This document shows, piece after piece, positions 28,501-30,878 of a stretch of DNA of 64,000 nt (positions are counted from its first letter, which is position 1; each line of letters starts with the position of its first letter). Source of the DNA: Paenibacillus ihbetae (GTDB taxonomy: Bacteria > Bacillota > Bacilli > Paenibacillales > Paenibacillaceae); NCBI RefSeq assembly GCF_002741055.1, contig NZ_CP016809.1, forward strand, positions 5,992,501 through 6,056,500. Direction: 5' to 3'. A model generated the notes under the pieces. It did no database searches. It was given only the letters and a program-made list of their open reading frames with translations, and was not told the DNA's origin. Both the position numbers and the translations under genes were made by a program.

Positions 28501-28645
28501 TCCTTTGCTCCATAGGATAAGGGACTTGGACTTTTTGCAAGATGCTTCATGCAACCATCCTGACGAAAATATACATATAATCAATCCGACCGGCTCATAA
28601 AATGATGAAAGTAATGTGTAATGGTGAAAGGGGGCCGTGTGCAAG

Positions 28646-29290
28646 ATGTTAACCCTGTTACTGTTCCTGTTTGCCGCCAGTGCTGCGGTTGCCAGCGTCG
28701 ATACCACCTGCGGATTGAACGTGCTTGGAAGCCTGGATAACACAAAAGTGAACAAAGCCTCTTATGCACTCGTTTATGTGCTCTCCTGCACGCTGGGGGG
28801 CGCGGTGACCGGACTCGCGATCGGCGGTATCAATTATTTGCTGTCTCTAACCCCGCTGAATACCTCATATAATGCAATCATTATCATCATGTTTGCCGTG
28901 TTCATCCTGTTAGAGCTGTTTAATAAATCCGGACTTCTCCCAGCGGGAAATTTCATTGTGCCGTCGGAATGGATAAGGCAGGCGGGATACCGTTCTGCAG
29001 CGCTCTGGGGCCATATTTTGGGCATGGGATTTATTACGCTTCAAGCCGGCGTCCTGTTCCACGCCTATGTGCTATTATCGATATTTGCGCCGGCCTGGTG
29101 GTTGAGTCTTCTGGCGGGAATATGCTTCGGATTCGTACGGGGCACTGTATTTAGTCTCCCCCTGATCCGGTCCGTCGTCCACATGCTGCTGGAAAAAAGA
29201 TGGCTTAAGCGCACCTTGCTCAGCGCCGTGCGTTTAGTCGTTTCTTACGTGCTGCTGACCGGATCCATCTTATGGATTCTCCTGTCCTAA
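28646..29290 (+). CDS. Polytopic membrane protein of a Mau-like cluster
   Basis: A 214-residue protein with five to six hydrophobic segments. Cysteines occur in the first two segments (DTTCGLNVLGSL, VLSCTLGG) and in AGICFGF. It is the first gene of a four-gene plus-strand group with a MauE-like, a MauD-like and a light-chain-like gene. By position and topology it could be a MauF-like or thiol-transport protein, but I cannot show homology. A GTG at 28637 is in frame but lies two bases after the AAAGGGGG site, so I use the ATG at 28646. Confidence 0.6.
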   Translation: MLTLLLFLFAASAAVASVDTTCGLNVLGSLDNTKVNKASYALVYVLSCTLGGAVTGLAIGGINYLLSLTPLNTSYNAIIIIMFAVFILLELFNKSGLLPAGNFIVPSEWIRQAGYRSAALWGHILGMGFITLQAGVLFHAYVLLSIFAPAWWLSLLAGICFGFVRGTVFSLPLIRSVVHMLLEKRWLKRTLLSAVRLVVSYVLLTGSILWILLS

Positions 29291-29315
29291 TTTAAGAAGG
29301 GAGGTTGCCGTTCCG

Positions 29316-29843
29316 ATGTATGAATTTGCCGCTATTTCCTCCACCTTCCCCATGCTGTTGTCGGTCACCGGCTACATCTGGAGTGCCTTCTTCGGGGATC
29401 CGGATCGATTCCCCGGCAGTCCCCGTTTGCACGCGCTGCTTGTATTGCTGCAGTTCCTTACCGTAACCATGGTTTACGGATATCCCTCATCCATGAGCTT
29501 TGTTTTGCTGTCGGTCCTGTATTTTACTCAGGGGATCGGCGTGGTTTATTACATACGGAAGAAAGGAAGGGTGGACTGCGGCTGTCTCGGTCCGCAATTT
29601 CATTCCCGACTCGGATGGCCGCTCATTGCGGTTAACGGGTTAATGGGAATGCTCAGCTGGGGTTGGAGCCATCCGTCGTGGTTTATCTATCCGGAAGCAG
29701 TCGCGCTGAACGGATTTCTGCTGGAGGGCATGCTGCTTCTCGTATCGCTGCTTGTCATCGTGGGCATTCCGGATGCCGTGCATGCCATCCGGATATACCG
29801 CGAGCTCGCTGCCCCGCATGCTCCGTACATCAAACCTAGGTAA
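29316..29843 (+). CDS. MauE/DoxX-like redox-associated membrane protein
   Basis: A 175-residue protein with four to five membrane segments and a cysteine motif (RVDCGCLGP) at about residue 89, as in MauE-type proteins. In methylotrophs MauE and MauD are needed for disulfide formation and stability of the methylamine dehydrogenase light chain. Ribosome site GGGAGG. It sits 25 bases after the previous gene and 11 bases before the next, so the four genes form one operon. Confidence 0.75.
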   Translation: MYEFAAISSTFPMLLSVTGYIWSAFFGDPDRFPGSPRLHALLVLLQFLTVTMVYGYPSSMSFVLLSVLYFTQGIGVVYYIRKKGRVDCGCLGPQFHSRLGWPLIAVNGLMGMLSWGWSHPSWFIYPEAVALNGFLLEGMLLLVSLLVIVGIPDAVHAIRIYRELAAPHAPYIKPR

Positions 29844-29854
29844 AGGAGGACGTG

Positions 29855-30394
29855 ATGAACACGTTTTTTTGGATATCCTATATTATTCTATGGCTCCTCG
29901 TTGTGCCGTTGGTTCTGCTTAACCTGGTCTTGTTCAGGCAGCTGGGAATCATGGTGATGGGAACTGCGCGGGGGGTGAATCAATCCGGCATTCCGGTCGG
30001 TCGCAAGCTTCCCGAAGCTATCACCACCGATCTGCAAGGGGGCTCCTGGTCGACGAGCCGCTTGGCCGGCACCTCAGCCATCCTGTTGTTCGGATCGCCG
30101 ACCTGCAAGGAGTGCGCCCATATTATTCCCGATTTTACCCGAATTGCGAAGAAGCACCAGGTTAAGCCTGTCCTTCTGTTATTCTCGTCCGCTGAGCAAG
30201 CGGCGTCTTATGTCTCGACGATCGGCTATGCGGATGAAGCCGTCCTGGTTACCCCCGAGCTGGCCCGGCAGCTGGACGTCCAAGTAACGCCTTATGCATA
30301 TGCGGTTGACGGCAGCGGCGTCATCAGGCACAAGGGGCTGGTCAACAGCCGCGAACAGCTGGAAGCCTACGTGAAGGCAACCAAGGCTTCCTGA
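29855..30394 (+). CDS. MauD-like membrane-anchored thioredoxin
   Basis: A 179-residue protein: one N-terminal membrane span (about 3-28), then a thioredoxin fold with the active-site LLFGSPTCKECAHIIP (C84, C87; CKEC) and the cis-proline loop VTPYAYAVDGSG. MauD proteins carry the same topology with a CXXC active site. It should act on the outer face of the membrane, making or reshuffling disulfides in the cysteine-rich product of the next gene. Start at the ATG at 29855 (GTG at 29852 is three bases closer to AAAGGAGG). Confidence 0.75.
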   Translation: MNTFFWISYIILWLLVVPLVLLNLVLFRQLGIMVMGTARGVNQSGIPVGRKLPEAITTDLQGGSWSTSRLAGTSAILLFGSPTCKECAHIIPDFTRIAKKHQVKPVLLLFSSAEQAASYVSTIGYADEAVLVTPELARQLDVQVTPYAYAVDGSGVIRHKGLVNSREQLEAYVKATKAS

Positions 30395-30410
30395 ATACGA
30401 GGTGATAAGT

Positions 30411-30878
30411 ATGTGGCGCAAGCCTGCAAATAAGGATGAAGAAGCGCAGACGGTAATCAGCCGTCTGACCCGGAAAGCCAATCGAATCCCAATCTTGAAC
30501 CGGTTCGCGCAAAAAACGGCGGAGCTGCTGGCAAGAATCCTCCTGAGGCCAGAGGAGAAGCTTGTTCGCATTTCCTTTGCCGCCGGTCCATGCCGCCCGC
30601 CTCACGGTCAGTATTGCAGCGGCTGCGGAGCAGATGCTTCATGCCCGCCCGATTATATCATCTGCACGCCGAAATCGGTTATTACAGACTGCAAAGGGCT
30701 GTGTCCTTATCCGTCCGGCTGGTGGTATACAAGCGATCCGCCCGGACAACGGGCCAAATGCCAGGATTGCATCTCGCAATATGTTCACCCCGAATTCGGC
30801 ATAAAAGGCTGCTACCAAGGGGCTCATATTTATGGAAGATATATTATTTGCGCATGCAGATCGACATTTACGTATTAG
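30411..30878 (+). CDS. MauA-like 12-cysteine protein lacking TTQ tryptophans
   Basis: A 155-residue protein whose last 95 residues resemble the light chain of methylamine dehydrogenase. Cysteines are at 61, 69, 72, 78, 85, 94, 98, 117, 120, 134, 147 and 149: twelve, as in that subunit. Shared blocks are CSGCGADASCPPD and HPEFGIKGCYQGA. The enzyme makes its tryptophan tryptophylquinone from two tryptophans; the only ones here are 2, 104 and 105, not at those positions. A basic helical stretch (residues 15-55) precedes the cysteine part; there is no ordinary signal peptide. GAGGTGATAAGT precedes the ATG. No heavy chain (MauB), MauG or amicyanin is in the window. Confidence 0.7.
   Translation: MWRKPANKDEEAQTVISRLTRKANRIPILNRFAQKTAELLARILLRPEEKLVRISFAAGPCRPPHGQYCSGCGADASCPPDYIICTPKSVITDCKGLCPYPSGWWYTSDPPGQRAKCQDCISQYVHPEFGIKGCYQGAHIYGRYIICACRSTFTY

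Follow-up and report, generated by a model that had tools for sequence, protein, structure and literature searches.

In other bacteria, the mau folding genes serve the folding of one part of methylamine dehydrogenase (MADH). The order mauF-B-E-D-A is found in Paracoccus, Indioceanicola and Methylobacterium, and to our knowledge the individual roles of MauF, MauE and MauD in MADH assembly are still vague. Here we analysed a stretch of 64,000 nucleotides (the window) from Paenibacillus ihbetae (contig NZ_CP016809.1, positions 5,992,501 to 6,056,500 of the forward strand), whose genome is complete in a single contig of 6.59 Mb. The open reading frames (ORFs) of the window include four tandem genes on the same strand at 28646-30878, which confirms the original prediction of a four-gene Mau-like cassette of 2.2 kb with gaps of 11-25 bases. 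We consider it likely that this cassette is a membrane thiol-redox and export module of mauF-E-D-A stock that serves one secreted, disulfide-rich protein other than MADH, and that the product of its first gene is very probably a selenoprotein in ten other genomes. This reading is based on the four-gene unit, the relationships to MauF, MauE and MauD, the invariant candidate redox residues, the leader and cysteines of the client, and the lack of a heavy chain.

Relationship of the four genes to the mau set

With ATG starts, the gaps between the genes are 25, 11 and 16 bases. The genes and their motifs are as follows:

28646-29290, plus strand: gene 1 (F), MauF-like membrane protein by profile comparison, the cysteine (Cys) form of a protein with probable selenocysteine (Sec) in other Bacillota; 214 amino acids from ATG, GTG start possible at 28637
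28709-28711, plus strand: TGC codon of the conserved Cys in VDTTCGLNV of gene 1; TGA at the same codon in ten other genomes
29316-29843, plus strand: gene 2 (E), membrane protein of the MauE family (PF07291); 175 amino acids
29577-29585, plus strand: CGC motif of gene 2; both cysteines invariant in 13/13 sequences
29855-30394, plus strand: gene 3 (D), MauD-like membrane-anchored thioredoxin-fold protein (TIGR02661, below cut-off); 179 amino acids, GTG start possible at 29852
30104-30115, plus strand: CKEC motif of gene 3; both cysteines invariant in 14/14 sequences
30411-30878, plus strand: gene 4 (A), MauA-like protein predicted to be exported, with 12 cysteines and without the tryptophans of tryptophan tryptophylquinone (TTQ); 155 amino acids, GTG start possible at 30402
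30411-30590, plus strand: MauA-like leader of gene 4; twin-arginine (RR-x-hydrophobic) motif absent in the window, present in 7/18 aligned relatives

Gene 2 scores 34.8 bits with the MauE model PF07291 (cut-off 27) and gives a profile match to seven MauE proteins (92.5%, E 5e-7). The top NCBIfam match of gene 3 is the MauD model TIGR02661 with E 2e-17, but its 63.3 bits stay below the cut-off of 188.6; the identity to four MauD proteins is 27-30%. The earlier naming of a MauE-like protein with CGC and a MauD-like protein with CKEC holds for both genes.

No Pfam or NCBIfam model was matched by gene 1. As judged from profile-profile comparisons, it is a remote homologue of MauF that is reached via intermediates, namely the F proteins of other Bacillota in which Sec is predicted (Sec-type F): gene 1 matches these at 98.0% (E 1.5e-13), and they match MauF at 96.3% (E 1.9e-9) with the conserved Cys aligned. 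This Cys is invariant in 13/13 aligned Paenibacillus-type sequences. The gene had been described as a polytopic membrane protein, which is right for the membrane and incomplete as to its descent. Since gene 1 is linked to MauF through the intermediates, all four genes appear to come from the mau set, and the order in the window would be F-E-D-A, that is, mauF-B-E-D-A of Paracoccus minus the heavy-chain gene B, if gene 1 is MauF.

The profile comparisons also suggest that gene 4 is a remote relative of MauA. It matches seven MauA proteins at 79.9% (E 1.4e-5); when the alignments on both sides are enlarged by relatives, among them the Cys-rich protein A' of other Bacillota and a Thermomicrobium light chain, the match is 94.9% (E 4.6e-8). 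The match between gene 4 and A' is clear (97.4%, E 1.2e-11), and in the alignment the leader of gene 4 resembles the MauA leader. All 12 cysteines are invariant in 22/22 aligned relatives, some of these being near-copies; L009, a locus with one in-frame TAG, was excluded from the gene 4 alignments. The predicted 12-cysteine MauA-like gene therefore stands as far as the cysteines and a remote profile relationship are concerned, while single-model scores do not call it MauA.

Several results weigh against these assignments and the role built on them. A direct profile comparison of gene 1 with three MauF proteins fails (0.5%, E 0.13). Gene 4 has no Pfam or NCBIfam match at E<=1, and the MauA model PF02975 scores above its cut-off in 0/197 genomes of the family; matches to this model at E<=10 in 110/197 genomes were read as chance, none being above cut-off. 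The alignment of gene 4 with MauA covers, besides the leader, just the first half of the mature domain, with the C-terminal half unaligned, and A' alone matches MauA weakly (7.9%). The leader in the window lacks a twin-arginine signal, and the structure predicted for gene 4 is unusable (mean predicted local distance difference test score 36).

As for the neighbourhood, a CstA-type gene lies upstream and a GNAT gene downstream of the cassette (Pfam). Promoter and terminator scans gave about as much as shuffled sequence (4 vs 2.9 and 5 vs 3.0, respectively).

Spread of the cassette and the missing dehydrogenase partners

Gene 4 was matched in 22 of 394 genomes of the Paenibacillus family at E<=1e-3; 19 matches are strong (at least 172 bits, the window's included) and three lie at 21.9-23.6 bits. 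Neighbourhoods of 8-10 kb were fetched for 14 matches, 12 strong and two weak, six other strong matches being outside this set. The original prediction had proposed looking for the four genes together in other genomes, and at 12/12 strong loci fetched all four are present in the same order. The weak matches in G247, G257 and G272 were taken as chance and none was counted; no cassette is present at G257 or G247. Flanking ORF clusters join at most 5 of 13 loci (the 12 fetched and the window). Of 16 loci from a scan of genome contigs, 14 are labelled Paenibacillus and one each Neobacillus mesonae and Bacillus sp. V3-13; the nearest named relative among them by gene 4 is Paenibacillus lactis (95%). 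Among 5.77 billion proteins, the gene 4 profile retrieved 11 at E<=1, in a search of limited sensitivity.

The gene 3 profile led further, to 53 of 398 class-level genomes at E<=1e-8. Nine of its ten best matches besides the window's (E<=9.2e-15) are accompanied by E, D, F and the Cys-rich A', which is located between D and F in eight of them and past a second tatAC pair in the ninth, G543. In 398 phylum-level genomes F itself had no match besides the window's own. Genome G432 (L143:4193-7489) carries MauE- and MauD-like genes only, without F or A' in the stretch fetched; an ABC-transporter-like gene (by eye) follows them, possibly pointing to a different client system.

Genes of the twin-arginine translocation (Tat) system adjoin the cassette in some relatives. 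In Bacillus sp. V3-13 it is followed by tatA (by eye) and tatC, and its client scores 17.1 bits with the Tat-signal model of NCBIfam, above the cut-off of 16.7. In G543 (L140:2209-6989) tatA-tatC pairs flank E-D-F, the preceding pair recognized by Pfam and the second by eye, and A' comes after the second. A link between the presence of Tat and the twin-arginine motif was considered and dropped, since tatC occurs in 20/20 genomes and gives no contrast.

MauB is absent from 29/29 genomes with gene 4 or a homologue of it. No match was obtained in the window's complete genome, where the Paracoccus control was positive, nor in a further 28 that carry gene 4 or A', of which 18 belong to the Paenibacillus family (six of these known by gene 4 alone) and 10 do not, the Paracoccus control reaching 701.7 bits in the same search. 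In the window's genome, which was the one searched for MauG, the MauG-type model PF03150 gave E 0.68 and 12.7 bits vs a cut-off of 25.6, with a positive control. The heavy chain and MauG, said in the original prediction to be missing at the locus, are thus also not found elsewhere in this genome.

Since genes for MauE, MauD and a MauF-like protein follow the mau order, the cassette might be taken for part of a methylamine or aralkylamine dehydrogenase system that has its heavy chain and MauG at another place in the genome. Given the results for MauB and MauG, we regard this as extremely improbable, and the light-chain candidate argues in the same direction. In the stretch corresponding to W57, none of the 22 aligned gene 4 sequences has a tryptophan (Trp); the Trp before the W108-type Cys is present in 15/22 and replaced by Gly in the window. 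Because a Trp57 equivalent is lacking, no TTQ is expected in the gene 4 product, and the lack of conserved TTQ tryptophans is an argument against a light chain of MADH. The cassette is not a methylamine dehydrogenase, and the earlier proposal of a different secreted, disulfide-rich product is probably right.

The client could carry another residue-derived cofactor, for instance at Trp104-Trp105 of gene 4 or at a Trp of A', so that the cassette would serve a small redox enzyme. Trp104 and Trp105 are retained in at least 18/22 sequences and invariant in a second alignment. A tryptophan cofactor is possible in A' since a Trp sits in its W57-like stretch in 8/9 sequences (by eye), with the spacing to the next Cys shifted. 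Gene 4, however, lacks a further invariant Trp with which a TTQ-type cross-link could be made, the block encodes no cofactor-making enzyme, and the window's genome has no MauG-type enzyme, so that we consider such a client unlikely. The A' sequence of G582 (L141:3860-4336) leaves the family sequence after HPTD, which looks like a frameshift or an assembly error, and its end beyond HPTD was trimmed.

An in-frame TGA in gene 1 of other Bacillota

In ten genomes, the nine of the gene 3 profile (loci L134-L142) and Bacillus sp. V3-13 (L064), F contains one in-frame TGA each (10/10), where the Paenibacillus genes have the codon for the invariant Cys (among others L064:1554, L142:5546 and L138:5493). 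This feature is not visible from the window, which has TGC there. Such a codon could be the stop of a pseudogene, a mistake of assembly or a plain stop between two short genes. Against this, the TGA is at the identical codon in all ten genomes, which span at least five families; the frames contain no further stop, homology is found on either side of the TGA, and a Cys stands at the equivalent position in the MauF alignment also. In the same loci TGA works as the ordinary stop of other genes.

As to the Sec machinery, SelB and tRNA-Sec were above cut-offs in 11 of 19 genomes searched, namely in all ten with the TGA-type F and in G225, whose F is of the Cys type; both were lacking at cut-off in 7/8 Cys-type genomes tested and in G432. 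The Cys form of F in the window fits with the 7/8 Cys-type genomes without Sec machinery. ARAGORN reported tRNA-Sec in all three loci fetched for this purpose, and NCBIfam models identified SelB at two of these loci and, at that of G225, SelA. In this genome of the Paenibacillus family (L150:3066-7793), a TatC-like ORF (by eye) adjoins selB, selA and tRNA-Sec.

Codon usage after the TGA was compared among nine F genes, L064 being excluded; the sequences are related, so the comparisons are not independent. In the 14 codons after the TGA, the same codon was used for the same amino acid in 238/343 comparisons, as compared with 110/292 in the 20 codons before it and 956/2490 from codon 31 onwards. 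The share in codons 15-30 was 67/107, and the synonymous constraint therefore extends beyond the hairpin, which can be held in favour of a TGA unrelated to Sec.

The consensus fold after the TGA, from an alignment again without L064, consists of two hairpins, with both-sided changes retained in 3/10 pairs. We applied the published bacterial model of the Sec insertion sequence (SECIS), as given in PMC13188914. It accommodates an unbulged stem in 7/10 TGA-type F genes; in L140 and L142 the stem found there is bulged, L064 has no hairpin that fits, and the Cys form of the window has none. Since 126/1629 codons of eight of these F genes would pass the same test, the hairpin count and the misfit of L064 leave some room for a non-Sec TGA, as does the fact that the Sec reading is derived from sequence. 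Altogether we regard a pseudogene stop, assembly error or plain stop as very unlikely.

In the F tree, L064 groups with the Cys forms of Paenibacillus (95/93). Two changes are needed among the Sec, Cys and MauF groups, the deep part of the tree being unsure with long branches; one F alignment excludes L135, a near-copy of L134.

Because of the aligned TGA, SelB and tRNA-Sec, the codon constraint and the SECIS-like hairpins, F of the ten genomes is very probably a selenoprotein of an unlisted family. A MauF-like family does not appear in the table of 119 prokaryotic selenoprotein families of a 2026 inventory (PMC13188914), and no NCBIfam model (June 2026) was above cut-off for six Sec-type F proteins, the best being ArsG (E 0.056). 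Among the papers listed by a literature search, none joined selenoproteins with MauF or with MauE/MauD, or selenocysteine with Thermoactinomyces, and the one that paired selenoproteins with methylamine dehydrogenase dealt with thioredoxin reductase; a term search of the main text of the deep-Sep paper gave no match. Within the literature and databases searched, a Sec form of MauF thus appears unreported.

Proposed role and comparison with known systems

In the module as we propose it, the client would be exported, by Tat at least in relatives, since tatA/tatC adjoin the cassette in Bacillus sp. V3-13 and in G543. D would make or reshuffle the disulfides of the client outside the membrane, and E and F might carry electrons between D and either the membrane or the cytoplasm. 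F would act via its one Cys or Sec, located where its first hydrophobic stretch ends, and E via CGC. The likeliest product would be a compact, disulfide-rich secreted or surface protein rather than an amine dehydrogenase subunit. We hold it to be very likely that MauF-type proteins include a new selenoprotein family, and that Sec-type F joins MauE, MauD and Tat in a line devoted to forming the disulfides of a MauA-like protein without TTQ and exporting it. Bacillus sp. V3-13 and members of at least five families of Bacilli would have this line, and Paenibacillus would have it with Cys.

The client might also be a secreted, disulfide-rich antagonistic or signalling miniprotein of bacteriocin-like type. 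Homologues of mauE and mauD without other mau genes occur in candidate clusters for ribosomally synthesized and post-translationally modified peptides of Streptomyces (decRiPPter, PMC7794033), the accessible part of which mentions no F or A relative; the small Cys-rich product with predicted export and the patchy spread (22/394) would suit such a role. The block contains no immunity or dedicated transporter gene, and we consider a miniprotein of this kind conceivable, if rather doubtful.

A better knowledge of this module would be of value for MADH itself, since a natural F-E-D set that serves one client and has neither heavy chain nor TTQ allows disulfide formation to be viewed apart from cofactor formation, and the Cys/Sec exchange points to one residue of F as redox centre. 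If our reading is true, the MauF step in MADH biogenesis would be thiol/selenol redox at one named residue, and a membrane selenoprotein family would be added to those inventoried. With the prokaryotic selenoprotein families listed in PMC13188914, F has in common the Cys/Sec pair, a TGA followed (in 7/10) by a hairpin that fits the SECIS model, and the thiol-redox setting.

A light-chain cluster of Thermomicrobium roseum (L099) resembles the cassette in its MauA-like proteins and its MauE/DoxX, MauD-like and F-like genes, and differs in TTQ-type tryptophans and several propeller-like proteins, both seen by eye. In this plasmid stretch (L099:1-8412), several MauA-like light chains lie among the propeller-like proteins, one of them fused to MauE/DoxX, and one MauA-like protein passes PF02975 at 44 bits. 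It is perhaps an expanded TTQ-type system in Thermomicrobia. The aau operons for aralkylamine dehydrogenase in Pseudomonas, Cupriavidus and Haematobacter share the E-D-A core with the cassette, whereas they have their own heavy chain and cytochromes and no mauF in the stretches seen. From the mau genes of Paracoccus denitrificans, the cassette differs in that its block is without heavy chain, amicyanin, MauJ, MauG and MauM/N, in the missing TTQ tryptophans of gene 4 and in the remoteness of gene 1 from MauF. Both have homologues of F, E, D and A arranged in one and the same order, a leader of the Tat type on A (without twin arginines in the window) and the 12 cysteines of the mature light chain.

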